Position numbers and translations under genes: made by a program
In this document: positions 7,796 through 58,699 of the stretch, piece after piece
Numbering within the stretch: the stretch's first letter is position 1
Layout of the letters: every line of letters begins with the position of its first letter
The notes under the pieces: generated by a model
What the model was told of the DNA's origin: nothing
The model's database searches: none
What the model saw: the letters and a program-made list of their open reading frames with translations, nothing else
Source of the DNA: Intestinibacillus sp. Marseille-P6563
GTDB taxonomy: Bacteria; Bacillota; Clostridia; Oscillospirales; Butyricicoccaceae
DNA: 64,000 nucleotides
NCBI RefSeq assembly: GCF_900604335.1
Contig: NZ_UWOD01000002.1
Coordinates: 1,178,001 to 1,242,000, forward strand
Direction: 5' to 3'

Positions 7796-9973
7796 TTATG
7801 CAGTAAACTTGGTTAACATGGTTGCAACTTCCGCACGAGTGGCGGTGCTCTGCGGATTGAGCGCGCCATCACTGCCTTGCAAAATGCCCTTTTGTACACA
7901 ATACTTCATAGCATCCAATGCCCAATCGGATACCTGGTCGCTATCCGAGAATCCAGACAGGCTGGCGGTTAAGTCACTGGGCGCGCCATCATACTGATAC
8001 AGCATGTAGGCGAGTTCTTCCCGCGTAATATTTTCATCTGGTTTGAAAGACGTGCTTTCCAAATCCTTCAGCAGGCCCTTTTCCCAGCTCCAAAGCGCGC
8101 CGCTTGCATACCACTGCGAAATATCCACATCGGTGAACGGGTTATTGCCACTGATGGAGGGGGAGCCCGCAATGCGGTACAGAACCGATGTCATCATGCC
8201 ACGGGTCATTTCCCCGTTCGGTTCAAAGGTTGTAGCACTCGTACCAGAGAGATAACCCTTTTTCACACACGTCATGACGTATTGCTTGCCCCAGTGGCCA
8301 TCCAGGTCAACAAATGGGGTATCGCGCGTCGTCGAGCCGACCAGGTCATAGGTGCATACCGAACGATAAGACGTGTTTAAGACCACTTCATACTGGCTAT
8401 CTTTATCAATGTCTGCTACAACAGGAGCCGATTTTACGCCATTGGTTTGCGCATTGGAGCCGTAATAGCCCGGATACGTTGTCGGCAGCTGCGTGCGGGT
8501 GATCAGCTTCAGATTGCTGTCGAGCACATACAGAGAACCATTCACGCCGGTATTTTCACTGGTGACATCATGTGGGCCTTCTGCACGGCTGTCCGTCCAG
8601 GAACCAAAAATGATTTCCTGTTTTCCATCGCCATTGATGTCCTTACAAACCGGCTTGGCGGCATATTCTGCCACACTGGCCGTGGTGGCCGGCAGGGTGA
8701 AGCTCTTCATCTGCTGGTCGAGCGTGAAGCAGTACAGCTTGCCGTCATAGGAGTTAAAGAGGATTTCCTTGTTGCCATCGCCATCCAGATCGGCCGTCAC
8801 CGGCTCGGACATGACAAAAGAAGCAACTGAGTTGGTCGCGTCTTTGAGCCGGCCGCCCAGACCGCTGGGGAAGGACGTCCAGTCAAAGCCCTTTTCCGGA
8901 TTGACATAGCGGGTACGATCGCCGTTAAAGACGCAAACGGTCATATACTGGCTCTTGAGCCAGAACATATTCGCCACATCCTGGGTGTCCATGACAATAC
9001 CTGTCACAACGATTTCCATGTCGCCATCGCCATCCAGGTCATCGATCACCGAGCCAGCATGACCAAATTCCATGCACAGGCGTTCGGTCAGCGAAGTTTT
9101 ATTCTGGTCGGTATCCCAGCCGCGCTGTGCAACCATCCGCTCGTGACCATAGTCCAGATAGGTTCTCACATATCCCCAGGGATGCGCGTCTCCAAATTCA
9201 GACGCATTGGCCATGACAAGCGAACCGTCGATCTCATAGGCCTGAATGCAGCGGTTATCCGTAGGAACGATGATTTCCGGCAAGTTATCACCGTCAATAT
9301 CGCCGGTGGAAATGCCATTGCCAAATACACCATAGCTTTCTGCTATATCGATCTGAGAGCCCGAAAGCTGCGGCCAGCCGGGAAGCTGGTTGCCACGGCA
9401 ATCATACGCCCAAACGCTGGTTTCCGATGCGACACCGCAGCCTACGATGATCTCATCGGTGCCATCCCCGTAAAAATCGCCGATTGCTACCGAGCGGATG
9501 GAACCATCCATGCTGATGTACTTGGGCCAGCCGGGTTTAAAATAACCGGTGTAGTCCAGCACCGAAATACAGTTTTTATGGACGGAAATGATTTCTTTCC
9601 AGCCATCGTTATCGATGTCGTCTACGATTGCATCGCACCAGGCACCGCCGACATTCCCGTACGTTTCGGGCTCATAGGACGAGGTGCGATCCTTTCCCGA
9701 GTTCACACGCCACTTGGTTTGACCGGTTGTGGCATCGGTCACGGTAATAGCGGACGAGACACTAATCACTTCATCTTTTCCGTCGTTGTTCAGATCGGTC
9801 ACAATCGGCGCACAATAATAGGCTTCATTCGTGTATTTTGTGTGGGATGCTCCCGAATACAGATATTTTGCTTGTGCTGAGATAGATGCTGCCTGCGCGG
9901 GCAAAGGGCATAGGCTGAGTGTCAGTGCCATCGCACTCAAGCAGGCAATTCCTTTGCGCATGGACAATTTCAT
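7796..9973 (-). CDS. Secreted FG-GAP/VCBS-repeat protein with C-terminal SLH domains
   Basis: A 725-residue protein with a CAGGAGGA site before the ATG. The Sec signal is MRKGIACLSAMALTLSLCPLPAQA. Residues about 50-540 hold at least eight calcium-binding FG-GAP/VCBS motifs (DLNNDGKDEV, DIDNDGWKEI, DIDGDNLPEI, DLDGDGDMEI, DLDGDGNKEI, DINGDGKQEI), predicted to fold as an integrin-type beta-propeller. Residues about 545-725 are three SLH repeats (VDLDGHWGKQYV, FTDVDISQWYASGALW, FSDSDQVSDWALDAMKYC) that should anchor it to the wall. SLH domains are at the C-terminus here, unlike the S-layer genes around it, and it lacks the shared crossover sequence, so it is a fixed rather than switchable surface protein. 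It may have adhesive or ligand-binding function; the substrate is unknown. Confidence 0.85.
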   Translation of the reverse strand: MKLSMRKGIACLSAMALTLSLCPLPAQAASISAQAKYLYSGASHTKYTNEAYYCAPIVTDLNNDGKDEVISVSSAITVTDATTGQTKWRVNSGKDRTSSYEPETYGNVGGAWCDAIVDDIDNDGWKEIISVHKNCISVLDYTGYFKPGWPKYISMDGSIRSVAIGDFYGDGTDEIIVGCGVASETSVWAYDCRGNQLPGWPQLSGSQIDIAESYGVFGNGISTGDIDGDNLPEIIVPTDNRCIQAYEIDGSLVMANASEFGDAHPWGYVRTYLDYGHERMVAQRGWDTDQNKTSLTERLCMEFGHAGSVIDDLDGDGDMEIVVTGIVMDTQDVANMFWLKSQYMTVCVFNGDRTRYVNPEKGFDWTSFPSGLGGRLKDATNSVASFVMSEPVTADLDGDGNKEILFNSYDGKLYCFTLDQQMKSFTLPATTASVAEYAAKPVCKDINGDGKQEIIFGSWTDSRAEGPHDVTSENTGVNGSLYVLDSNLKLITRTQLPTTYPGYYGSNAQTNGVKSAPVVADIDKDSQYEVVLNTSYRSVCTYDLVGSTTRDTPFVDLDGHWGKQYVMTCVKKGYLSGTSATTFEPNGEMTRGMMTSVLYRIAGSPSISGNNPFTDVDISQWYASGALWSWEKGLLKDLESTSFKPDENITREELAYMLYQYDGAPSDLTASLSGFSDSDQVSDWALDAMKYCVQKGILQGSDGALNPQSTATRAEVATMLTKFTA

Positions 9974-10091
9974 AACGATTCCTCCTGATTCTCAACAGTC
10001 TGCCGGGATATAGTTTACAACAGATGATTGTTGCATTGCACAAGTTGTGTTTTAAAAATACATCTCCTTTCATCCAAAATGCACTATTTTT

Positions 10092-10121
10092 ATTTTAGCG
10101 TGTTACCAGATGCTCTGTCAA
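10092..10121 (-). promoter_or_regulatory. Promoter of the FG-GAP/SLH gene
   Basis: Minus-strand TTGACA (10116-10121), 18-bp spacer, TAAAAT (10092-10097), leaving a leader of about 110 bases before the ATG at 9973. Confidence 0.7.
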
Positions 10122-10218
10122 TCAATTCAAGGAAATATTTTCTTAAAAAGACAATGCTTTTGAGTTTCCCGGGAAATAAACCGGGATGTAACGCAATCGC
10201 GCATGAAGATTGGGACAT

Positions 10219-10260
10219 AAAAAAAGAACTGCACACCTTTACAGGTTGCAGTTCTTTTTT
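10219..10260 (-). terminator. Terminator of the HExxH-protein gene
   Basis: Inverted repeat AAAGAACTGCA (10223-10233) and TGCAGTTCTTT (10247-10257) with a T run on the minus strand, directly after the stop at 10272. Confidence 0.85.
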
Positions 10261-10271
10261 GAAATAACCGG

Positions 10272-10937
10272 TTAGGCAGCCCCATTAAACAGGCTGGTCG
10301 TGGGTTCTGGCTGCTGGAACAGCTTTGCGGCATTGTCCTGGTTTGCACGGGTTGTCGTACGAGTCGTACCTCCCGAAACATATACCTTGCCGCACTCCGG
10401 GCAAATATCGGTATAAAGCGTAACCGATTGGCTGACGACCTCACGGTTTTCCTGCTTTGCCTGGGACTGCTCACGCATGACATGTTCCTGTTCATGTCCG
10501 CGTACCGCAGCAGCAGCCTGCGAAGGGTCAATATTCGTCGGCGTTTTGTAAGAAACCCCCGGATCATCCGAGCCGTCTTGATATTTACGCTCCTTACAGG
10601 TCTGGCATTCGCTTTCTTCCATCACTTCCTGCGCAGACTTCATTTCACTTTGTGCTGCGTTTTCTGCACTGTTATCCTCTTGTCCGAGATATTGGATGCG
10701 ATTACGTACTGCCATCTCGGTCGGGTCCACACCTTCTCGGACGGTAGGAAGCTCTGGCTCCCCGAAAGACGGGGTAGTGCCATACTGTACCGTAGGCACA
10801 GCTGTGACGGGCGGCACGGGTGTACTTTGTGCAGCCGCTATCCGTCCAATTCCATCCACACGGCTGGCGCTATTCGATTGATAGGATGTATTGAAACGAT
10901 AGGTATAGGCACGTTCTGCACCAATCAAATTGATCAA
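10272..10937 (-). CDS. Putative HExxH metallopeptidase-like protein (SprA-related type)
   Basis: About 221 residues from a TTG at 10937, chosen because AAAGGGTGAG precedes it; the frame stays open a further 12 codons upstream to another TTG (10973). The N-terminal half is low-complexity, Pro/Ser-rich (TPVPPVTAVPTVQYGTTP). The C-terminal half has CQTCKER, then RGHEQEHVMREQ, an HExxH zinc-site pattern in the setting seen in SprA-related proteins, then CPECGKVYVSGGTTRT. Two CxxC pairs suggest a structural metal. No signal peptide is visible. Function is unknown; SprA-related assignment is by motif memory only. It is a single gene with its own promoter and terminator, lying between fibre B and the FG-GAP gene. 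Confidence 0.55.
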   Translation of the reverse strand: MINLIGAERAYTYRFNTSYQSNSASRVDGIGRIAAAQSTPVPPVTAVPTVQYGTTPSFGEPELPTVREGVDPTEMAVRNRIQYLGQEDNSAENAAQSEMKSAQEVMEESECQTCKERKYQDGSDDPGVSYKTPTNIDPSQAAAAVRGHEQEHVMREQSQAKQENREVVSQSVTLYTDICPECGKVYVSGGTTRTTTRANQDNAAKLFQQPEPTTSLFNGAA

Positions 10938-15922: not shown

Positions 15923-16972
15923 TTAGATGTCGCTGATCTCAAGCAAGCCGCCCATGCGCCGGGCCATGCTGACCTTGTCGCTGTATTGCACATGGGCATA
16001 AATGTTGGCGGTGGTACTGATGTCAGCATGGCCGAGCCATTCCTGAATCTGCCGCAGAGAAAATCCTTCGCGGAGTAATAAGGTTGCCGCCGAATGGCGC
16101 AGGTCGTGCAGCCGGATGTGCGGCAGGCCGGCCCGGCGGCAGACTTTGGTAAATTCCTGGGATATGTAATCGGGCCGCAGGGGGGTGCCATCGTCACGGG
16201 TGCAGATATAATCACTTTTTTGATAATTTTTTCCGTAAACACGCTTCATATCCTTCTGATGACGGCGTAATTCGCTCAAATAGCGCCGCATATCCGGGGT
16301 GAGCGGCAAGGTACGGTAACTGGACTTGGTTTTGACCTGATCGCTGTAAATCACATGGCCGCGGGTGGAAACCGCCGTATGATTGATGGTAATGGTACGG
16401 GCTTTGAAATCCACCGCGCTCCAGCGTAGACCGACGGCTTCGCTCCGGCGCAATCCATAGGTTGCGGCCAAAACAAAGGCCGGTTCGGCCGGAGAATTGC
16501 GCGCTTCTTTGAGAAAACGGTTGAGTTGGGACAAATCATAGACTTTTCCGATGAATTTTGTCCGTTTGGGCAGCAGGACGTTATCGGATGGATTGTGGGT
16601 GATCAGCTGCATGGTGACCGCATATTTCAGACATTTGTGGACGATCGAATGAAATTTGACGATGGAAGTGGGGGAATAGCCTTCTTCATACTTCAAATTT
16701 GCGAAATTTTGAAAATCCGATGGCCGGGCATTATTCAGGGTGATGCCATGGGTGCGGTAATACGGTTCAATATGTTTGCGGAACATATACCAATAGCTGT
16801 CCAGGGTATTGGTTCGAACCTGGCTCTTCATCATCCCCAGCCAGCTTTCCATGAAATCGGCAAGCAGAATATCTCCATCCACTGGGGGAGCTTGATCCGA
16901 TTTTACCGGCTGCGTGTCCTGAAAACACACATGCAGACATCCGTTTTCTTCAAAATATTCTGGCTTTTTCAT
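15923..16972 (-). CDS. Tyrosine recombinase, candidate S-layer switch enzyme
   Basis: A 349-residue tyrosine recombinase, full length for the phage integrase/XerC-D fold. SAM-like core-binding domain about 34-130 (DFMESWLGMMKSQVRTNTLDSY). The catalytic domain has Arg175 (TYGLRRSEAVGLRW), a beta-hairpin Lys214 or 216 (KTKSSYRTLPL), His289-x-x-Arg292 (LHDLRHSAATLL), His315 (WLGHADIST) and nucleophile Tyr325 (ANIYAHV): all key residues present. AAAAGGAG lies before the ATG. It sits alone between two divergent S-layer genes, with the expression promoter just downstream and a second promoter just upstream, and no excisionase or phage module beside it. This position and the intact active site make it the best candidate for inverting S-layer cassettes. 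The alternative is the integrase of a lost element. Confidence 0.88.
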   Translation of the reverse strand: MKKPEYFEENGCLHVCFQDTQPVKSDQAPPVDGDILLADFMESWLGMMKSQVRTNTLDSYWYMFRKHIEPYYRTHGITLNNARPSDFQNFANLKYEEGYSPTSIVKFHSIVHKCLKYAVTMQLITHNPSDNVLLPKRTKFIGKVYDLSQLNRFLKEARNSPAEPAFVLAATYGLRRSEAVGLRWSAVDFKARTITINHTAVSTRGHVIYSDQVKTKSSYRTLPLTPDMRRYLSELRRHQKDMKRVYGKNYQKSDYICTRDDGTPLRPDYISQEFTKVCRRAGLPHIRLHDLRHSAATLLLREGFSLRQIQEWLGHADISTTANIYAHVQYSDKVSMARRMGGLLEISDI

Positions 16973-48432: not shown

Positions 48433-50304
48433 TTAGAAGTGCATGGGGGTCAGCTTGCAGTAATCCTCGATCGTGCCGCCCTTGCGGAAGCAGTCGATGA
48501 TTTCCTTGCCCAGCGGGTCGAGTTCGTCGGTGTAGAACTTGTCGAGCTCCTTGGCAAAGAAGTCGGTCAGGATCTTTGCACCTGCATCGTAACCGTCCTC
48601 GCCCATACGGTCCTGGGTCTCAGTGCGCAGGAACTTGGAACGGATGGACTGGCCTTCGATGGTCATTTCCAGCATCGCATAGCCGAGCAGCGGGCAGCGA
48701 GCCGGCGTTACCTTGTCGCGCTTGACATGGCCATTGTGACGGCTGAGCCATTCACGGCTGAGCCATTCGGCGGCAAAACCAACGCGATATACACCGATGT
48801 GCTGATTGGGGATGAGCACATAGCGGGTGTTCGGATTATCAATGATCTGCTTAAGCAGCAGGTTTGCCTGCTTAACGCGCTTACCGGTTGCAAACGGCCA
48901 GTACGAACCAACGCCTTCGCTCTTGAGTTCGCCGCCGCCCACGATGGACGGATTCTTAAAGCCGCGCGGTGCGACCAGACGCCACATCCAAGCCAGTGCC
49001 GGCGGAATGAAGTGCAGCATACCCATGATGCCGTAGTTCGGGTTATCGCGGGTAGACGGGGGCATACGGGTACCGAACGAACGGATATCGACCTCAACCG
49101 GCTCGGTAACGATGTGCGGCACCATTTCACGCGGAACGATCGCACGGGGGTTCGGGCAGGGCTTGCCGTTGGAGTCCAGGGTGTGTTCCCAGATCAGGCT
49201 GGTCGCGCCCACGACGCCCTGAATGTTGAAGAAGCACAGCGGCTCGCTCGGCTGGGTGCAGATGCGTTCATATACCGGGTCGCAGCCATAATGGGTCACG
49301 CCGTCCATGCGCAGGAACCAGCCGTCCTCGCCATCGACCAGCGTCAGCTTGCCGCTGCCGGTCTGCAGCTTGGGATAGCAGGTCGCCATATCGTCACATA
49401 CCGGCTCGATGCGTGCCGTACGGCCCAGGTTCAGGATGGTCGGTTCGCCCGTCACAGTATTAACCGACAGCAGCACGCGGCCATCTTCGGTACGGGCAAT
49501 ATCCTGGAGCATTTCGCTCTTACCGCCGCCCGATGCGCCTTCGTGCATGATGACCAGTTCGTTATCGTACTGGGTGGTCAGACGGGCTGCCGAAGCGTGC
49601 GCGGTCACCCAGTCTTCCTGCTCACCGATGTCGAGCAGAACCGAATAAACGCCCTTCTTCGCAGACGGTCCCGGATAGAGGTTATACGAGAAGACTTCGT
49701 GGCAGTCGTCCAGACGGTTGTGTACAACGACCTGCTTGCCGTTGAAGTGGGTGTGACGGAACGGGGGCGCAACGTAAACGATTGCGCGCGGCTTGTAGCC
49801 TTCGGTTTCCTCTGCGGAAACGAAGCCCTGCAAATTCGCCATTGCAAATGCAAAAAAAGCCGCATTTCGCGGGCAGATCAGCATCGAACCATACCCATAG
49901 ATATTACCGCCCGAGTTGAAGGGCATAAAGATGAGTTCCTGTCCCTTGAGCCATTCGAGCGTCTGCTTCTTCATGTCCGCGAACGGGAAGCCATATACGT
50001 CGGCAAAGCGCGGCTTATCGGTCGGCTTATCGTCACCGATGCGCATGCAATCGGGGTCACGACGGCGCATGTAATCCTCTACATAATTGACCACAACGCC
50101 ATTTTTGGCGCGCACGACGGTCGCTTCGACGACCTCGCCGCGGCCCGGTACATCATAGACCACATCGTACTTGCCCGAGCGGCCAGTGCCGAACACCATT
50201 TCATGCAATTCCTGCTTGGTCGTCGGGATGTAAATGCCCTTGCAGTTTTCGATCACATCGACGATCTCAGGTGAAAAAGTGAATTTTTTCAGCAATCGGT
50301 TCAT
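48433..50304 (-). CDS. DUF4914 family protein (PEPCK-like P-loop)
   Basis: 623 residues; AAAAGGAGG upstream of the ATG. I recognise the family as DUF4914, of unknown function. A P-loop-like HEGASGGGKSEMLQD (about 256-270) resembles the ATP-binding loop of phosphoenolpyruvate carboxykinases, as do the flanking PPFRHTHFNGKQVV and the later GVVGATSLIWEHTLDSNGKP. No membrane segments or export signal. Ordinary codon use; monocistronic with promoter and terminator. A kinase or carboxykinase-like activity is possible but not shown. Confidence 0.8.
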   Translation of the reverse strand: MNRLLKKFTFSPEIVDVIENCKGIYIPTTKQELHEMVFGTGRSGKYDVVYDVPGRGEVVEATVVRAKNGVVVNYVEDYMRRRDPDCMRIGDDKPTDKPRFADVYGFPFADMKKQTLEWLKGQELIFMPFNSGGNIYGYGSMLICPRNAAFFAFAMANLQGFVSAEETEGYKPRAIVYVAPPFRHTHFNGKQVVVHNRLDDCHEVFSYNLYPGPSAKKGVYSVLLDIGEQEDWVTAHASAARLTTQYDNELVIMHEGASGGGKSEMLQDIARTEDGRVLLSVNTVTGEPTILNLGRTARIEPVCDDMATCYPKLQTGSGKLTLVDGEDGWFLRMDGVTHYGCDPVYERICTQPSEPLCFFNIQGVVGATSLIWEHTLDSNGKPCPNPRAIVPREMVPHIVTEPVEVDIRSFGTRMPPSTRDNPNYGIMGMLHFIPPALAWMWRLVAPRGFKNPSIVGGGELKSEGVGSYWPFATGKRVKQANLLLKQIIDNPNTRYVLIPNQHIGVYRVGFAAEWLSREWLSRHNGHVKRDKVTPARCPLLGYAMLEMTIEGQSIRSKFLRTETQDRMGEDGYDAGAKILTDFFAKELDKFYTDELDPLGKEIIDCFRKGGTIEDYCKLTPMHF

Positions 50305-50492: not shown

Positions 50493-51557
50493 TTATTTAC
50501 TGATTTGGTAATTTGTTTTGATTTGGTTGAGCTTGAGCTGCGCAGTGCGATAACTCTGGTCGGAAGTCGGCGTCCCTGCGGCTACACCCAGCAACGCCGC
50601 GTCCGCAGGCAGAACATACCCGTAGGTTTTCCAACGTTCCACCGCTCGTTCATATGCAGTCTGTTCGGCGTCAGCCTGCATCTGGCTTTGGCTCAGCGCC
50701 CAATCGGACTGCATCTGCTGGTAGGCCATCGTAGGCATACCGTTTAGATATCCGGTCAGCCCGGCCAGCGAGATCGAATAATCGCGGTCAGCATTGTACT
50801 GACTGAGCGCCGCCTGGGCCTGCTGCAAGGCTGCCGAGGCCTCGCTGTTATAATATCCGCTCAGCAGACTGGCCTCCTGATCGGCGGCCGACTGGGCGGC
50901 AGCCGACCGCGCATCCAGCCGCGCCGCGGCCAGATTATTTAGGTCACTGCGGTAGGCGTTGTCCATCGCCACCCGACTGGTTTCGGTATAGCCGGAGGTC
51001 GGCGCGCCATAGGCGCTGCCGGTACTCAGCCCCAAAGCCGCCAGTTTTTCTTCATTGCCCAGCGCCGACCGGCGGGCATTGACATCCGCCTGGGTCATCC
51101 CCTGCCGGTAACTCTGTTCAATGTCGGCATACTGGCTTTGCAGCCGCTGCCCAATGGCCTGCCGGGCGGTTTCAAACGCCTGGAGTCGCGCTTTGGCAGC
51201 GGCATCGTACAGTCCGGTCACTCCCAGCTCGCTGTCCTCTTCCCCGCTCGATATCCAATACGGCCGATAATTCTGGGTCCATACCGAAACCGCTTCGTTG
51301 CTGCCGACCTTGCCGGCCAGCCCCATGGCATCGATTTTGGCCTGCCGCTCTTTAAGCAAGCGGGCGCGTTCGGCCGCATCGGTGGTGTTGGCAATCGCTT
51401 CCGCATAGTCAAAATTGGGGTCAAAAGACACCGAACCGCTGCCCTTACTGCTGCTGGAAGAACTGCTGGAACCTCCCGAACTGCTCGGCTTTTTGCTTGC
51501 GGCACTCGCCGCGCCAATGGCTGCGCTGATCGCGCCGCTGATCATTCCTGAAAGCAT
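50493..51557 (-). CDS. Phage internal or tail-associated protein, Ala/Gln-rich
   Basis: 354 residues, last gene of the head operon. N-terminal Gly/Ala helix (MISGAISAAIGAASAAS), Ser-rich linker, then long Ala/Gln-rich helices with coiled-coil character (about 105-310: IGQRLQSQYADIEQSYRQGM; LSQYNADRDYSISLAG). The C-terminus, ERWKTYGYVLPADAALLGVAAGTPTSDQSY, is a motif I associate with Clostridia phage structural proteins. It could be an internal, ejection or tail-needle protein; no firm assignment. Ribosome site GGAGAAAG. Confidence 0.6.
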   Translation of the reverse strand: MLSGMISGAISAAIGAASAASKKPSSSGGSSSSSSSSKGSGSVSFDPNFDYAEAIANTTDAAERARLLKERQAKIDAMGLAGKVGSNEAVSVWTQNYRPYWISSGEEDSELGVTGLYDAAAKARLQAFETARQAIGQRLQSQYADIEQSYRQGMTQADVNARRSALGNEEKLAALGLSTGSAYGAPTSGYTETSRVAMDNAYRSDLNNLAAARLDARSAAAQSAADQEASLLSGYYNSEASAALQQAQAALSQYNADRDYSISLAGLTGYLNGMPTMAYQQMQSDWALSQSQMQADAEQTAYERAVERWKTYGYVLPADAALLGVAAGTPTSDQSYRTAQLKLNQIKTNYQISK

Positions 51558-51578
51558 CTTTCTCCATCCTCTCTTTCT

Positions 51579-53396
51579 TTATGATAGCCCGCGCGCGCCC
51601 AGCGTGTAGCGGATACCAAGCGCCAGCAGACCGAAGGGCTCGCCCGCCCGGTTGTTGCGGATGCGCACCCGTACCAGCCGTGCCCGGTGCAGTTTGCGCC
51701 GCACCCGCATGTTGACCGCCCCGGGCTGACAACGGAAGGTGAAACGGGAAAAGTCGAGCGTTTCAAACGAAAACAAATCCAGATTCCGGTCGAGTGCCAA
51801 AATCTCGCCTTCCCCGGTCTCATAGGTCACCCGCACGCCCGAGCGCGTATAGGCCATGAGCGTGGCCATCACTTCGCGCACATTTTTCTGCCGTCCCCAG
51901 GTACCCAGCGGCAGATCGGGCGTACACCACCAGGCGTCGATCGCCTGACCGTCATCCAAATAGGCATCCCGCTCGTCCTTATCACTCACCCGGCAGATGC
52001 GGCCATCGGTCGTACCAAACCACAGTCGCCCGTCGAGCACCATAAAGCAGACCGCCGGGAAGGAATCCCAGTAATACCATTCGGGCGAACCGTCCGACCG
52101 CGATACTCTCCCGTCGGCCACATAGCACTTGCCGTCCACAGCCAGATAATATTTGTCCTTCCACACCACAGCGCACGCATCGGCCAGCCCGTTTTCGCCC
52201 GTCAAGCGCGGATCAACCGCGCGGGACATGCGCCGGATGGCGCGCTGGGCGGTCACGGCAGTACCAAACACGCCCATCACCCCGTCGGACGATAAAAACA
52301 GCGGGGTATCGCCCAGACTGGCAAAACTGCGCGGCGCCAGCCCGCCGGCGCCCTGCGCGCCCTGCTGCAAGGGATAGGCAGCCGTCCCGTTGTCATCGAG
52401 CAAAAAGGTGCGCAGATATTGGGTCGCCTCTTGATTCCCGCCCTCTTTGATGACCAACTGGCTTTCGTATTGCCGCACATAGCCGACAATGGCCGAAGCA
52501 TCCGAACCGATTTTGGTATACCCGGTGTCGGGGAAATAGGCCGGGTCATACAGCCCACTTTGCCAGTCGCAGTTGGGCTCGTCCGGGTTGCCGGACAAAA
52601 ACACGCGGGTATCGTTTTTGCCGCCGTACAGCCCTGCAAAGCGGCATTTGTTGATCTTGTCGGCATTGCCTTTGATGGTCTTACTGAACGTAATCGTGAC
52701 ATTCGCGATGCCGTTGGCGTTGGCGGGGGGCGAACCGAGTGTCACCACGCCGGTTGCCCGGTCAACCGACGAAACGGTGACTTTATCCCCGCCCACGGTG
52801 GCGGTGACTTCGGCATCATCGATATCCTGTGCATCCAGATAAAACTGGGTAGCCGACCCGTTGCCCACAAAAGTATTGATGCGCTTGGGGGTCAGAAGAT
52901 TGACCGCTTCCAGACTGGTGCCGCCGCCGGTCGGCTCGGCGGCAATGGTCGTGGTGGGCACAAAGGCCTCATCGGCCACGGGTGCGGTTGTCCACTTGTC
53001 CTCTTTCTGAAAGACCTTGCGATAGGTCTTGCCGTCGAGCAGATAGAGGGCACCGTTCATAAAGAACCCCTGTGAATAGTCTTCGTTCATGTCGGTGCAC
53101 AGTTCAGTCAGCGCCCATTCGCCATTCATGTGCAGCAGCTTGGTGCCTGCATGCACCACCGCCCCCATCCCGCTCGGCAGGGCAAACAGTCCATAGATGA
53201 CCCCTTCGGCCTCGGCCATTCGTTTGTATCCGGTGCGCTTACTCAAAAAGTCGGTTTCTTCGGCGATCATGTTGCAGGCGTCGGGCGAATGGGCCAGATC
53301 GGCCTTGGTCGAATGCACCGAAAAATCCACACCGCCGAAGCGTTCGGCCACCACTTCGTTTTCGGCCGCATAATTTGGAAACTGATAGGCCTGCAT
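51579..53396 (-). CDS. Phage neck/nozzle-like structural protein
   Basis: 605 residues from the ATG at 53396, overlapping the previous stop as TGATG. Begins with a short virion-type N-terminus (YQFPNYAAENEVVAERFGGVDFSVHST), then many short beta repeats (GVIYGLFALPSGMGAVVHAGT; GFFMNGALYLLDGKTYRKVF; FASLGDTPLFLSSDGVMGVFG; YYLAVDGKCYVADGR) suggesting a beta-propeller, like nozzle or stopper proteins of short-tailed phages. Position after the adaptor gene supports a role below the portal. Assignment by context and repeat pattern. Confidence 0.6.
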   Translation of the reverse strand: MQAYQFPNYAAENEVVAERFGGVDFSVHSTKADLAHSPDACNMIAEETDFLSKRTGYKRMAEAEGVIYGLFALPSGMGAVVHAGTKLLHMNGEWALTELCTDMNEDYSQGFFMNGALYLLDGKTYRKVFQKEDKWTTAPVADEAFVPTTTIAAEPTGGGTSLEAVNLLTPKRINTFVGNGSATQFYLDAQDIDDAEVTATVGGDKVTVSSVDRATGVVTLGSPPANANGIANVTITFSKTIKGNADKINKCRFAGLYGGKNDTRVFLSGNPDEPNCDWQSGLYDPAYFPDTGYTKIGSDASAIVGYVRQYESQLVIKEGGNQEATQYLRTFLLDDNGTAAYPLQQGAQGAGGLAPRSFASLGDTPLFLSSDGVMGVFGTAVTAQRAIRRMSRAVDPRLTGENGLADACAVVWKDKYYLAVDGKCYVADGRVSRSDGSPEWYYWDSFPAVCFMVLDGRLWFGTTDGRICRVSDKDERDAYLDDGQAIDAWWCTPDLPLGTWGRQKNVREVMATLMAYTRSGVRVTYETGEGEILALDRNLDLFSFETLDFSRFTFRCQPGAVNMRVRRKLHRARLVRVRIRNNRAGEPFGLLALGIRYTLGARGLS

Positions 53397-53764
53397 CAAT
53401 ACAGCTCCTTAATGGCAAATTGGGCAGCCGGACAGTGCATATCCAGCCGTGCGGCAAATTCCGCGCCCAGCCAGTTGAATTTTTCGTGGTCCTCGTCGCA
53501 GATGAGCAGCGCAGCCAGCCCATAGGGGAAGCATTCGCGCACCATGGCTTCCCCGGCGTCGATTTCATCGGTCAGGGCGTCCAGCCGAGGGGCGACGCGC
53601 AGGGGTTCCTGCCCATCCGCCTGGCGCAGCGCATTGATTTCGCGCAGACAGTTGGCCAACAGCTGGTTGAGCGCCCCAAGCGCAAAGGTTTCGTAATACG
53701 CCGCCCCCTCCTCCTGTTCACTCAGCAGGTTCATGGCTGCCAAAAAGCATTCTTTTCCGGTCAT
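53396..53764 (-). CDS. Putative phage head-tail adaptor protein
   Basis: 122 residues from the ATG at 53764, chosen for AAAGGAGG upstream. All-helical, acidic (TGKECFLAAMNLLSEQEEGA; AGEAMVRECFPYGLAALLICDED), matching in size and place the helical connector proteins that bind under the portal. No specific motif recognised; function rests on its position between capsid and neck genes. Confidence 0.55.
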   Translation of the reverse strand: MTGKECFLAAMNLLSEQEEGAAYYETFALGALNQLLANCLREINALRQADGQEPLRVAPRLDALTDEIDAGEAMVRECFPYGLAALLICDEDHEKFNWLGAEFAARLDMHCPAAQFAIKELY

Positions 53765-53825
53765 CGTCGGTCCTCCTTTGTCTGGGAATGGCCGGTGCGG
53801 GCTTTGGCCCGCACCGGTTCTGGCG

Positions 53826-54851
53826 TTATACCACCTTGGACGGATATTTGCCGTCCGCGACCGCATAGGCGCGCAGCGTTTCGCCCTCCTGCACGGTCAC
53901 CTTGCTGACATATTCCTTGGCCGAATCCGAGTAGCGCGGGTCGGAGCCGTCCAGCGTGTAGCGGATAACCGCGCCGCCGTCGGCACAGGTCAGCGTACCG
54001 TCCGAGTTGACCGGGTCGGCGGTCACGGTGCCGGTGTTCACGCAGGCATAAACGCCCGCGCACTTGGCGCCGAGCACAAAGGCATCGTAATAATGGCGGC
54101 CTTCGATCAGAGCGCCGGATACACCCACCGGGTCCTCGTGCACCTTAGCATCCGCGATCTTGTACGGCATGAGCACGGCGTCCTTGTGGGTGATGAGGAA
54201 CCAGCAGTTTTCGGGCATGTAGCTTTCGGGCACGCGTACGACCTCCATACCCAGCACCTCGCCGCAGATACCCTTGGCCACCGATTTGGCGCCCAGCGGG
54301 TCAATGGCCGTGAACTCGTCGGACAGACAGATGAACTTGTGCATTTCCGAGGAAATATAGAGGTAGCGTCCATCGGGCGGCACCAGACCGTCATCGAGCG
54401 CCTGCATGCCCTCACCGATGAGCGAAATGATATTGCTCTTGGTCGGCTTATCGCTCACCGCAATGGTGCCGGCCATGTTGGCAAAGCGGCGCAGCGCATA
54501 CTTGTCCGCCGCAGGCGCCGACTTTTCTTTCAGCTGCAAGCGCAGCATGTCGGCCGCACGCTTCACGAGGTTCTGGTCCAGATTGTTGCCCTTGTCGATG
54601 GTCAGCGTAAACGCCTTATCCTGGGTCATGGTCAGTTCCTGCACGGTGTCCTGCATTTCGATCGGCGCGCCGTAGCGGCTGGAGCCTTCGCGCACATAAT
54701 CGACCTCGTCCACGGTCACGGGCGTATACACCTTGAGGGTCTTCACGCCCGTCAGGTCAAAGGTGGTCGCAGTCTTGCCCTTGATGAACGAGTCGCGGCT
54801 GAATGCGGATGCGATCTCGTCGGAATACCCGGTTGCTAAATTGATTGCCAT
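53826..54851 (-). CDS. Phage major capsid protein with C-terminal Ig-like domain
   Basis: 341 residues, GGGAGGAAAG upstream. The body (about 1-260) has HK97-type features: an N-arm (DLTGVKTLKVYTPVT), a helical spine (NLVKRAADMLRLQLKEKSAPAADKYALRRFANMAG), RYLYISSEMHKFI and MEVVRVPESYMPENCWFLITHKDAV, common to Gram-positive phage capsids. The last 65 or so residues (DGTLTCADGGAVIRYTLDGSDPRYSDSAKEYVSK...) look like a chitobiase/hexosaminidase C-terminal beta-sandwich, a fold used as surface decoration on capsids. Preceded by a scaffold gene, as expected. Confidence 0.8.
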   Translation of the reverse strand: MAINLATGYSDEIASAFSRDSFIKGKTATTFDLTGVKTLKVYTPVTVDEVDYVREGSSRYGAPIEMQDTVQELTMTQDKAFTLTIDKGNNLDQNLVKRAADMLRLQLKEKSAPAADKYALRRFANMAGTIAVSDKPTKSNIISLIGEGMQALDDGLVPPDGRYLYISSEMHKFICLSDEFTAIDPLGAKSVAKGICGEVLGMEVVRVPESYMPENCWFLITHKDAVLMPYKIADAKVHEDPVGVSGALIEGRHYYDAFVLGAKCAGVYACVNTGTVTADPVNSDGTLTCADGGAVIRYTLDGSDPRYSDSAKEYVSKVTVQEGETLRAYAVADGKYPSKVV

Positions 54852-54871
54852 ATGCTTTCCTCCCTATTCTC

Positions 54872-55333
54872 TTACATTTCTCCGCGCAGCGCGGCGATGA
54901 CGGGGTCCATCTGCGCGGGCTGGCCGTCCCCGGCGGCAGAGCCGACGGCCTGCTGGCGGTTGCGGGCGTTCTGTTCGAGCGCCTGGAGCTGCGCCTTTAA
55001 AAGCGCGATCTCATACTTGCGGTAAGCCGATACCAGACTGCCTTCGGTCTGAGCGTCCTGCCAGACCTCCTGCGGGATGTCGCCCGGCTGCACGTCCGGA
55101 TAGGCGGCAATGAAATTGGCATACACCTGGCCATTGGGCACCTGGCCGGACGCCCCGGCCATGCGGATCATCTCGCCCCGGCGGGACAGCCCGCTCACGG
55201 CCGCCTGGATAAGCTGGTCCATGGTCAGCGTGATCTGCTGCCCGTCCACAGTGAGCGTTACCGTATCGCCACTTGCCGGAGGCGCCGCTTCCCCCTCCTT
55301 AAACGGATTGGTCTGCTTGTCGGTTTTGTTCAT
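54872..55333 (-). CDS. Phage scaffold-like protein
   Basis: 153 residues from the ATG at 55333 (AGGAGG upstream). Charged N-terminus, VTLTVDGQQITLTMDQLIQAAVSGLSRR, then Gln/Ala-rich helices ending in PVIAALRGEM. Size, composition and its place between portal and capsid fit a capsid assembly scaffold. It overlaps the portal gene end by 35 bases. Confidence 0.7.
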   Translation of the reverse strand: MNKTDKQTNPFKEGEAAPPASGDTVTLTVDGQQITLTMDQLIQAAVSGLSRRGEMIRMAGASGQVPNGQVYANFIAAYPDVQPGDIPQEVWQDAQTEGSLVSAYRKYEIALLKAQLQALEQNARNRQQAVGSAAGDGQPAQMDPVIAALRGEM

Positions 55334-56852
55334 TCTGCTTTTCCTCCTCCTGTCGTTTTCTGAGCGCACGCATCAGGCCGCGTTTGCCCTTCATGTGCTG
55401 GTCGGGCACATTCTGCAAATAAAGCAGCGGGTCAGCGATCAGACCGGTTTCGACCAGCCGGTCGTTGGTCACCGTCTGCACGGTCTCCGACCAGTAGCTC
55501 GCCTCACCCACTTCGACCTTGAGTTTCATCTCCCCGCCGCGCAGCTGGTTAAAGTCAAATTCCACCTGCTGCTCGTTGCCCTCTTCGTCGGTCACGGTAT
55601 AACGGCGCACGCCGTAGTGCGCGCCCATCAAATCCAAAAACGAACGGGCCCAGTCCTCAATGAAGCGGTAAAACTCCAGCTTGACCAGTTCGAGCGGCGC
55701 GGCCGTGGCCTGCTGCACGGCCACGATGGCCGAGGTATTGGTCGGCGTGACGTTACCGAGCATGGCGTCTGACGCACCCATGAGCTCCATGGTGTCGGTC
55801 ATCATCTGCTTTAGCACGTTCAGCACCTGGCTGGAAATATCGGGGGCCTTGAAAGCAGTCAGCACGGCCTGATTGGGGTTGCCGCGCATGCCGATGGCCT
55901 TGCCGATCTCGCTCGAGTACCCGTTGGGGAAACGGGTCATGTCGTAAATGATCTTGGGAAACGCCACCTGTTTGATGCACTGCACATACATGGAGTACAG
56001 CTTGTTGATGGCGATTTGGTTGGGGATGGCCTCGGTCACGGGCGACACGCCGTGGCAGCAATTCTTGCGCCGGTCCCAACTGAGGAACGCGAGCGGATAG
56101 CGGGTATAGGGCAGCACCTTCTCACGCATCACGGTCGCGTGCCGGGTGGTTTTCTGAAAGGCCACGCCGCCCGGCACCTTGCGCATGCGCAGCAGCACGG
56201 TCACACGGCGGTCTTTTTCGTGGGGCGTCATGTTTTCGCCCTCCCCATCCGGACGGATGGCGTTGATATCCGCGCTCGGACGGCGGTTTTTGAGCGCTTC
56301 GGTCTTGACTTCATCGACATCGCGGCGCATGGCCAGGATGATGTACGGCTGCCGCTCGACCTCGTCGGACGCCGTGTTGCCAAAATAGACGTTGGTGTTG
56401 TCGATGCACTCCACACGGATGTCGCCCTTGGCATACTGCCCGGTTTCGATGTCCGGGTCAAAATGGATGTACAAGCAGCCGTCGCCGTCCACGCAAGCGT
56501 TGCGCAGCACCATGCGGTTTAAGTTCTTGACCTTGCTGCGCTCCATGGCGCTTTCAAAGGCCTGCTCGAGCACCCGCTCGGTCTGGTCGCTGTCCCTGTC
56601 GCGGGCAAAGGGGGCCGCGCTCACGGCCACGTCGTCGCTGACCATCATGGCCACAAACAAATTGACGCAGCGCCGCAGCACATTAAAAATCAACGGGTCG
56701 AGGGTATTGACGCGCAGCCCTTCCCATTGGCGGCCCTGCACGAAGTCCTCGTTCTTTTTGACCTGTTCATATAAACCGATGCTGCGCTTGTAGTCCTGCC
56801 CGCGCTCATAGGCGCGCCACACCGCGCTCGGGGATGGATCAAATTGTTTCAT
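55299..56852 (-). CDS. Phage portal protein
   Basis: 517 residues from the ATG at 56852, chosen for AAGGAGGACAAGG upstream. Recognised by pattern: FNVLRRCVNLFVAMMVSDD (N-terminal helical region), RNACVDGDGCLYIHFDPDIETGQYAKGDIRVECID, SWDRRKNCCHGVSPVTEAIPNQIAINKLYS (clip/stem), and the C-terminal NTSAIVAVQQATAAPLELVKLEFYRFIEDW. Forms the dodecameric DNA entry ring of the capsid and docks the terminase. Size is typical of short-tailed or siphovirus portals. Confidence 0.85.
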   Translation of the reverse strand: MKQFDPSPSAVWRAYERGQDYKRSIGLYEQVKKNEDFVQGRQWEGLRVNTLDPLIFNVLRRCVNLFVAMMVSDDVAVSAAPFARDRDSDQTERVLEQAFESAMERSKVKNLNRMVLRNACVDGDGCLYIHFDPDIETGQYAKGDIRVECIDNTNVYFGNTASDEVERQPYIILAMRRDVDEVKTEALKNRRPSADINAIRPDGEGENMTPHEKDRRVTVLLRMRKVPGGVAFQKTTRHATVMREKVLPYTRYPLAFLSWDRRKNCCHGVSPVTEAIPNQIAINKLYSMYVQCIKQVAFPKIIYDMTRFPNGYSSEIGKAIGMRGNPNQAVLTAFKAPDISSQVLNVLKQMMTDTMELMGASDAMLGNVTPTNTSAIVAVQQATAAPLELVKLEFYRFIEDWARSFLDLMGAHYGVRRYTVTDEEGNEQQVEFDFNQLRGGEMKLKVEVGEASYWSETVQTVTNDRLVETGLIADPLLYLQNVPDQHMKGKRGLMRALRKRQEEEKQNEQNRQADQSV

Positions 56853-57051
56853 CCTTGTCCTCCTTTTCGCCCGTGTACGCGAGCAGGGCGGCCAGATCGT
56901 CGGCGAACGCGTCGTCGGCTGCATCCGGCGGCGCTTCGCGTGCCGCCGTGTGGGCGTCCTCGTCCCGGCCATGCGGCCAGCCGCGCGCGATCAGGGCGCC
57001 GATGAGCGCCATCGCCCCCGCGCAAAGGGTCTGCAATACCATGGTTTCCAT
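56839..57051 (-). CDS. Small predicted membrane protein in the packaging operon
   Basis: 70 residues, GGGAGGAGG upstream of ATG 57051. One hydrophobic N-terminal helix (VLQTLCAGAMALIGALIARGW), then an Asp/Ala-rich acidic tail (AADDAFADDLAALLAYTGEKEDKDE). Stop overlaps the portal start. Function unknown; not convincing as a holin (single helix, wrong place). Confidence 0.6.
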   Translation of the reverse strand: METMVLQTLCAGAMALIGALIARGWPHGRDEDAHTAAREAPPDAADDAFADDLAALLAYTGEKEDKDETI

Positions 57052-57083
57052 GTTCCTGCCTCCTCCCATTGTGTGCACCCATT

Positions 57084-58415
57084 TTAGGTGCGAAACTCCA
57101 AAAACTCCCGCACTTCCCCGGCCGCCCGGTCGGGCTCGGGCTCACCGGGCTCCCATACGCTAACTGCATAGCCGCGCAGCGCGTCCGGGGCATGGGTCAG
57201 TTCATGCGGCTGCCCGGCCACATCGTTGGGATTTTTCGTGTCGTGCTGCACAGCCCCCAGCGTGCGGATCAAATTGCGGCACGTCGAAAAAATTTGCAGC
57301 CGGGCGGTCAGCCCGCCCGCTCCATCCGGGATGGGCCGCAGCAGTTCCTTGACCGCATACCAGCCGGTGACTCGCTCGTTGCCGGACGGCTCAAAATACA
57401 GCCCGCTGTCCTGCCAAATCTCGGCGGCCGATCGGCCGCTTTCCTGCCTGCGGTGGAACAGATCGGGCGGCGCCAGCCGCACATCGATAACCTCCCGGCC
57501 TTCGGCGCGCCGCACCTGTTCGGCGGCTTCGGATAAAATGAGCCCCGGCTCATACACCTCGCGGTACACATAGCTGTGGCCATCCGGAGCCTGGGCCACC
57601 CACAGAGCGGCGAACATATCCAGGCCATAGTCGACTGTCAGCCAGCGTTTCCACCCGTCGGGCACGACAAACGGCTCGACCACATGGATTTCCCGGGAAA
57701 ACTCGGAAAAATACCGGCCCTCCTGCAAATCCCAGTCTCCTTCGAGCAGGGCCTTGCGTTCGCGCGGCGGCAGGTTTTCCAGGCGCCTCACATAGCGCGG
57801 GTCGCGCTGCATCAAAAAGACGTTGTCGGTCACCCGGGCGGGCAGGAACACCCGGGTGCCGCCCTCGAACTCGGCCACGGTATCGGGCGGCATGGCGTCG
57901 ATGAAGCGTTTTTTCACCCAGTCATGCCCGGGGCCGCCCGGATTGGTGGTCGATTTGACCTGTTTGGGGTATCCATTCGCGCCGCGCACGCGGCTGATGA
58001 GATACGTATACTGATAAAAGGAAAAATGGGTCAGTTCGTCAAACCGAATCACATCATACTCAGCCGACTGGTACCGGGTCACATCGCCTTCATACTGGCA
58101 GTGCCCAAATTCGATCACCGAACCGTTCACCAGCCGCCACACCCCGTCGCTGCGCACAAACTTACCCACAACCTGTGGATAAAGCTGTTCACTCACGGCG
58201 ATGAGCGAGCGTTCAAGTTCGCGCATGGTACGCCGCAGGATGAGCTGCCGGCTGCCCGGATACTGCACGGCGAACACCAAAGCATCCACAAGCTGTGCAT
58301 AACTCTTGCCGCCGCCGGCCGCGCCGCCGAACAGGGTTTCTACGGCCGACGACCGGATAAAATCGGCCTGCCGCCGGGTGATCTCGAACCCATATCGTTT
58401 TTTACGCGCCCGCAT
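57084..58415 (-). CDS. terL: Phage terminase large subunit
   Basis: 443 residues. ATPase: Walker A GGAAGGGKS (30-38), Walker B VIRFDE with Asp126-Glu127, coupling motif STTNPGG (about 155). Nuclease (RNase H fold): Asp in LTVDYGLD (about 265), and HAPDALRGYAV near the C-terminus. Packages DNA into the prohead. All motor and nuclease residues appear intact, so it is not an obvious decayed relic. ATG overlaps the end of the small-subunit gene. Confidence 0.92.
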   Translation of the reverse strand: MRARKKRYGFEITRRQADFIRSSAVETLFGGAAGGGKSYAQLVDALVFAVQYPGSRQLILRRTMRELERSLIAVSEQLYPQVVGKFVRSDGVWRLVNGSVIEFGHCQYEGDVTRYQSAEYDVIRFDELTHFSFYQYTYLISRVRGANGYPKQVKSTTNPGGPGHDWVKKRFIDAMPPDTVAEFEGGTRVFLPARVTDNVFLMQRDPRYVRRLENLPPRERKALLEGDWDLQEGRYFSEFSREIHVVEPFVVPDGWKRWLTVDYGLDMFAALWVAQAPDGHSYVYREVYEPGLILSEAAEQVRRAEGREVIDVRLAPPDLFHRRQESGRSAAEIWQDSGLYFEPSGNERVTGWYAVKELLRPIPDGAGGLTARLQIFSTCRNLIRTLGAVQHDTKNPNDVAGQPHELTHAPDALRGYAVSVWEPGEPEPDRAAGEVREFLEFRT

Positions 58416-58626
58416 CCTCCACCACCTTCACGGTCAGTTCCACCCGCTGGGGCAGCCGCTCGCGCATCTCCTCGGCCATGGCCTTGATTTCCTTGATGGC
58501 TGATACGATGGTCGTGGGCTTGGTTTCGCCGTCCTCGGCCAGTTCGATCAGCCGGTCGATGAGCGCCGGCATTTTCTCCCACAGCCGCCTTTGCATCTCT
58601 TCTTCCTGCCGTTGCTGTCTGGTCAC
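58402..58626 (-). CDS. Small terminase-subunit-like protein
   Basis: 74 residues from a GTG at 58626 with AAAGGAGG upstream. Entirely helical and charged (LIDRLIELAEDGETKPTTIVSAIKEIKAMAEEM). First gene of the head operon and overlapping terL, the usual place for terS, though short and without a clear helix-turn-helix. Could instead be a small regulatory protein. Confidence 0.55.
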   Translation of the reverse strand: MTRQQRQEEEMQRRLWEKMPALIDRLIELAEDGETKPTTIVSAIKEIKAMAEEMRERLPQRVELTVKVVEDAGA

Positions 58627-58670
58627 AGCTCCTCCTTTCTCGAACTAATGTTCGTTTTTTGTTGCTCTTG

Positions 58671-58699
58671 ATAATAGCCGACGATTGGCGGTCTGTCAA
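58671..58699 (-). promoter_or_regulatory. Promoter of the phage packaging operon
   Basis: Minus-strand TTGACA (58694-58699), 17-bp spacer, TATTAT (58671-58676) within CGGCTATTATCA, the same extended box as the fibre genes and P2. An inverted repeat, CGAAC-ATTA-GTTCG, lies in the leader before AAAGGAGG. Confidence 0.75.

Follow-up and report, generated by a model that had tools for sequence, protein, structure and literature searches.

Comparison with described systems

Very little is known of gene transfer agents (GTAs) outside the Alphaproteobacteria; a podovirus-like one was first described in January 2026, from Faecalibacterium. Its operon, FpGTA I, makes particles of ~40 nm that contain ~9 kb of DNA, and these have been characterized by proteomics (Borodovich et al. 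2026, PMC12946183). In Intestinibacillus sp. Marseille-P6563, a stretch of 64 kb (contig NZ_UWOD01000002.1, positions 1,178,001 to 1,242,000; hereafter the window) contains an operon of nine genes that matches FpGTA I in gene content and order, a likeness drawn from genes on our side and from the published description on the other. We consider it about two-thirds probable that this is an SOS-controlled, podovirus-derived, GTA-like operon through which damaged cells export chromosomal DNA. The operon would add a further family to those with a podovirus-like GTA, here with selection and vertical descent put to the test, and the SOS box at its promoter, which is new here, provides a switch predicting when particles would form; if the reading is true, gut bacteria exposed to DNA-damaging drugs would begin to export chromosomal DNA.

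Both operons are compact and lack replication and integration genes, and neither includes lysis or fibre genes. Both encode a small terminase subunit (TerS) with no obvious DNA-binding domain, then the large subunit (TerL), portal, scaffold, capsid and short-tail proteins of podovirus-like type, and both belong to gut clostridia, FpGTA I being near-universal in its own genus (PMC12946183). They come from different families and differ in extent (ten genes in 10.5 kb for FpGTA I, nine in ~8.2 kb here), and the window operon has a LexA box, whereas the text of the FpGTA paper makes no mention of LexA or promoters (PMC12946183). For FpGTA II, which comprises baseplate, fibre, receptor-binding protein, holin and endolysin genes, we identified no counterpart to go with the window operon.

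RcGTA, CcGTA and DsGTA of the Alphaproteobacteria are likewise domesticated, vertically inherited virion operons under host regulation. These agents form siphovirus-like particles and are driven by CtrA/GafA, whereas the window operon has a portal and nozzle of podovirus type and, close to its promoter, a LexA box. As in a GTA, its head, portal and terminase genes are intact, no integration, replication or repressor genes accompany the cluster, and its inheritance is vertical and under purifying selection. PBSX of Bacillus subtilis is under Xre control, with a repressor of its own and a contractile tail, in contrast to the window operon with its short-tail nozzle and no repressor gene; it is similar in being a DNA-damage-linked, defective phage-like particle of a Gram-positive host (cited in PMC12946183).

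Among cultured phages, the nearest relatives are the Bacillus Pagevirus group (nozzle 30-31% identical over 96%), whose members Page, Pony and Pascal, podoviruses of ~40 kb, share the order terS, terL, small protein, portal, scaffold-like gene and capsid and have a homologous nozzle. Page also carries tail spike, fibre, holin, endolysin, replication and recombination genes, and the window operon has none of these; lacking lysis, replication and fibre genes, it is not a complete Pagevirus-like phage.

Gene content and the SOS box

The nine genes (50493-58626) are all on the minus strand with intergenic gaps of -35 to +61 nt, and the genome of the window (G000) has a single copy of the operon. 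A sequence-only reading of the window had described tightly packed, apparently intact terminase, portal, scaffold, capsid, adaptor, neck-like and internal-like genes, and the positions, profile matches and TerL motifs agree with it. The motifs of TerL are Walker A GGAAGGGKS, Walker B VIRFDE and the nuclease motifs VDYG and HAPDA, and in 20/20 loci checked its ATPase and nuclease motifs are kept. An AlphaFold model of the nozzle (predicted local distance difference test score 89, built with 34 sequences) matches the nozzles of Pa223, SU10, P22 (gp10) and T7 (gp12) over nearly its full length, with Z of 18-26 and Foldseek E down to 1.7e-18; PDB sequence searches with the portal, capsid, adaptor and nozzle gave nothing useful. 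No helix-turn-helix (HTH) DNA-binding domain was matched in TerS at E<=0.01. The TerS proteins of type-A loci, as we call operons whose terL is 60-69% identical to that of the window, are 69-88 aa long and have no HTH, whereas that of a sister operon type (below) is 188 aa long and has one. Profile searches found no integrase, repressor, replication, lysis or fibre genes attached to the operon; the absence of such genes that the sequence-only reading had noted thus holds for the operon but not for the cell, which has conventional prophage modules elsewhere in its genome.

The sequence GAACNNNNGTTC, the LexA box of Gram-positive bacteria, occurs once in the window, 27 nt before terS and just past the -10 hexamer. 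Type-A loci were compared in the window's genus (g1) and three other genera of the family (g2, g4 and g5), and in g1, g2 and g5 the box is exact in 16/23 loci and differs at a single base (AAACATTTGTTC) in the remaining 7/23, against a background rate of 0.012 per 520 nt. It lies after the -10 in G000, over the -35 in g2 (GAACATTTGTTCTTGAC), and in or beside the spacer in g5, and because the loci are related, independent support is best counted as these three placements. In G007, the genome of a relative, the same box stands upstream of lexA, rarA/mgsA (MgsA) and ypsA, which fits a LexA regulon. None of six loci of the other operon type has it. We infer that the operon promoter is under LexA repression. 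A putative LexA site has been described in silico in the Dinoroseobacter GTA cluster (PMC6473078); a search of the literature outside subscription journals and bioRxiv turned up no previous description of this operon, nor of a LexA box at the promoter of such an element in Gram-positive bacteria. Elsewhere in G000 (C1:1186435), a large serine recombinase gene has, ~26 nt ahead of it, a GAACATTAGTTC box with the same 12 bases as that of the operon.

SOS control suits killing as much as transfer, and a domesticated particle that is made on DNA damage without delivering DNA, as a PBSX-like killer or self-lysis device, is the explanation that we regard as unlikely but the best placed of the rivals. 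It would account for the lack of a fibre or receptor-binding gene in the operon, and the FpGTA authors could not exclude a killer-particle or self-lysis reading of their own element (PMC12946183). A killer would, however, have less need of a packaging motor, whereas TerL and the portal are intact and under purifying selection, and the nozzle, by its predicted fold, is a conduit for DNA.

Distribution and genomic neighbourhood

Type-A terL was found in 37/87 genomes of the family, that is, in 23/25 of g2, 11/12 of g4, 2/2 of g5 and 1/7 of g1, the last being G000 itself. Of these loci 20 were compared in full and 21 mapped, with genome G044 mapped but outside the tree set. Gene order is identical in all compared loci across the four genera, and at least 18/20 are intact, counting that of G020, whose terL was skipped by the gene caller yet aligns in full. 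The gene directly upstream is ftsK in 14/14 loci (12 of g2 and two of g5), DUF4914 lies downstream in G000, G030, G050 and G051, and the neighbours in g4 differ from those in other genera yet are common to the g4 species. The nrdDG neighbourhood of relatives holds neither the operon nor DUF4914. Searches found no integrase in or beside the intact type-A loci, no att-like direct repeats flanking the operon and no transfer RNA genes within the window. The operon's neighbours in the window are DUF4914 and a family-2 glycosyltransferase, as the sequence-only reading had proposed, and the former has a promoter-like site of its own, again as suggested there.

That reading had left open whether a domesticated particle of this kind is a GTA, a satellite or a remnant, and the GTA type fits best given conservation in four genera, descent that tracks the host, purifying selection and the absence of mobility genes. 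Two outcomes that it had named as telling against domestication do not appear: the sister species of the genus are cleanly without the operon and hold no decaying copies, and the type-A loci of relatives lie between host genes and not among complete phage genes. It is improbable that the operon is a phage satellite, or another element dependent on a helper, for which prophages in the same cell supply fibres, lysis and replication. The genome does contain other prophage modules, and the operon lacks exactly the functions that would be borrowed, yet phage satellites such as PICI and cf-PICI have an integrase and mobile, site-specific insertion, whereas here there is no integrase and no att-like repeat, the neighbours are fixed within genera, and the phylogeny is host-congruent in four genera where satellites would move.

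Selection and descent

Median within-genus ratios of nonsynonymous to synonymous substitution rates (dN/dS) are 0.125 for terL, 0.107 for the portal, 0.127 for the scaffold, 0.091 for the capsid, 0.186 for the adaptor, 0.140 for the nozzle and 0.179 for the last gene, compared with 0.138 for ftsK and 0.065 for nrdD of the host. The comparison of terL and capsid that the sequence-only reading had proposed thus shows purifying selection as in host genes, and in the closest pairs the dS of operon genes is similar to that of host genes. A prophage remnant retained by chance and heading for loss would explain why sister species of the same genus lack the operon and why the copies in G050 and G044 are broken, but with dN/dS of 0.09-0.19 over dS of 0.4-1.5, intact frames in 18/20 loci and a conserved promoter box we give it very little weight.

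Operon distances correlate with those of NrdD across 19 genomes (Mantel r 0.945, p 0.0005; r 0.775 within g2) and, within g2, with those of ftsK (r 0.886). In the operon tree every genus forms one clade and the order is that of the host, with g4 on one side and g5, G000 and g2 on the other; the placement of G000 among g2 and g5 is weakly supported (77/42). Since dN/dS and dS are both host-like and the operon and host trees agree, the operon is resident and selected, and by these comparisons it is inherited vertically without the decay of a prophage. Movement between genera on a chromosomal segment, in place of descent from a common ancestor, is very doubtful even though G000 is the sole g1 member with type A, its sisters have another operon type at another site, and its own placement is weakly supported, as its operon is not nested in another genus and is about equally far from g2 and g5 (33-36%), like its NrdD (16-19%).

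Proposed mechanism

In the GTA-like reading, a Pagevirus/SU10-like short-tailed phage would have been domesticated in an ancestor shared by four or more genera of this clostridial family. The genes for its head, packaging and nozzle survive as one chromosomally inherited operon, as conservation and tree congruence show. The conserved SOS box points to host LexA holding off transcription from the single strong promoter; when DNA is damaged, RecA would lift this repression and expression of the operon would follow. As TerS lacks an HTH of the pac-selecting kind, packaging by TerL is predicted to be non-selective, so that small capsids would be filled with host DNA with no choice of phage DNA. 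Release and receptor binding may proceed via genes elsewhere in the genome, and the outcome would be a GTA-like particle that carries chromosomal DNA out of damaged cells. Carriers of the operon would then probably make their own DNA-packaging particles upon DNA damage.

Several points weigh against this reading. The particle, its cargo and its transfer in this organism are predictions from the genes, as LexA repression is from sequence. The box is present in 0/7 g4 loci, matches to GAACATNNGTTC across the G000 genome are only weakly above control (9 vs 5), and lexA was not located in G000. A receptor-binding or lysis operon linked to the capsid operon was searched for in G000 and not found. 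Six sister species of the genus lack the type-A operon, which is therefore dispensable at least there. Finally, the operon is broken in two carriers: G050 has a split capsid frame and a shortened last gene, and in G044 (L068, 8078-9781) a serine-recombinase element lies within the capsid gene, with the nozzle found on a different contig, indicating that an insertion split the operon.

Features of the operon

The coordinates of the operon's features are collected in Table 1. The sequence-only reading had ended the module at 58699, which is the first base of the -35 hexamer of the operon promoter. The last gene is conserved across type-A loci but had no match in phages, and its product is predicted to be mostly helical, with a low-confidence model too poor for a structure search. 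At its C-terminus (53826-54040) the capsid protein has a conserved Fn3_assoc/CHB_HEX_C_1 domain (RYTLDGSDPRYSDSAK) that every type-A capsid read shares; it is possibly a surface decoration that binds glycans or mucus.

Table 1. Positions in the window of the operon's promoter, SOS box and genes, and of the DUF4914 neighbour
Feature	Position	Strand	Evidence
Promoter, sigma-70/A-type, TTGACA-17-TATTAT	58671..58699	minus	11/12 consensus matches; strong; upstream of terS
LexA/SOS box, GAACATTAGTTC	58642..58653	minus	between -10 and terS start
terS, 74 aa	58402..58626	minus	named from position ahead of terL
terL, 443 aa	57084..58415	minus	phrog_979, E 2.5e-53; ATPase and nuclease motifs intact
Small protein, 70 aa	56839..57051	minus	kept at same place in relatives
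Portal, podovirus/SU10 type	55299..56852	minus	phrog_156, E 6.3e-32; Pfam SU10_portal
Scaffold-like protein	54872..55333	minus	named from position; weak phrog_14606 match
Major capsid protein with C-terminal Fn3_assoc/CHB_HEX_C_1 domain	53826..54851	minus	phrog_422, E 1.2e-33
Adaptor-like protein, 122 aa	53396..53764	minus	named from its place after the capsid and ahead of the nozzle; no profile match
Tail nozzle	51579..53396	minus	phrog_3287 (virion structural protein), E 3.5e-31; fold matches
Last gene, 350 aa; ejection/internal-protein-like	50493..51545	minus	named from position
DUF4914 neighbour	48433..50304	minus	PF16260, E 5e-302; own promoter-like site 50441-50413

Related operons and other loci

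Among more distant relatives (terL 51-56% identical), loci with genes for fibres or lysis do occur, and in IMG/VR there are related 32-43 kb contigs, some of which include recombinase, fibres, holin and endolysin; fibre- or lysis-bearing relatives and phages of 32-43 kb in the same lineage are the expected ancestry of the operon. The nozzle family was found in 76/169 sampled genera. MT836592, a faecal "Bacteriophage sp." of 9.6 kb, was considered as packaging evidence and rejected, being a relative only.

Sister species in g1, among them G006 and G002 (L087, L089), have a compact operon of another type, in a constant position next to a LysR gene and away from the site in the window. This operon runs from a terS of 188 aa with an HTH through the nozzle, and a holin, an amidase and a 458-aa protein follow in line in both loci that were read out fully; it is possibly a second, separately domesticated particle. 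In a family of the same order (f19), 39/42 sampled genomes match the nozzle profile, and the six loci read (6/6, L186-L191) show an operon of ~8 kb in the same order, with two genes of ~105 aa in addition, between other genes; one of them, L189, has GAACATATGTTC upstream of terS. The genus of G448 (two genomes) has three nozzle loci, of other kinds. Several independent domestications are possible. More tentatively, at somewhat less than even odds, direct LexA control would make this a core SOS function of these gut clostridia, by which many species in several families of the order, once their DNA is damaged, pack and release their chromosome in small podovirus-like particles, with the nozzle family marking an order-wide, largely undescribed class of GTAs that arose by several independent domestications.

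Candidates for a counterpart of FpGTA II were sought in G000 through holin and amidase families. L139 is a myovirus-like prophage and L140 a siphovirus-like one; L142 (C1:882000-901999) has, at 9350-10785, a lone lysis cassette between host genes and without other phage genes, made up of small membrane proteins, a 79-aa holin-like protein and a 232-aa amidase; and L145 has a holin and a GH25-like lysozyme next to an insertion sequence. None of the four could be tied to the operon, and no holin/endolysin cassette of G000 had fibres outside the prophages or a LexA box. The g2 genomes have a lone endolysin-like amidase among host genes, for which we claim no link to the operon because all 22 genomes searched have some amidase.

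Finally, positions 1-31000 of the window hold an array of large proteins on both strands, about 990-1360 aa long, with similar N-termini and an S-layer-like appearance, and among them stand ~200-aa proteins that belong to a single family (MNQNFT...AFAEPIT). The region also has long inverted repeats, which reach 696 nt and are 76-87% similar, as well as a tyrosine recombinase (15926-16972), and it looks like a shuffling surface-protein locus.

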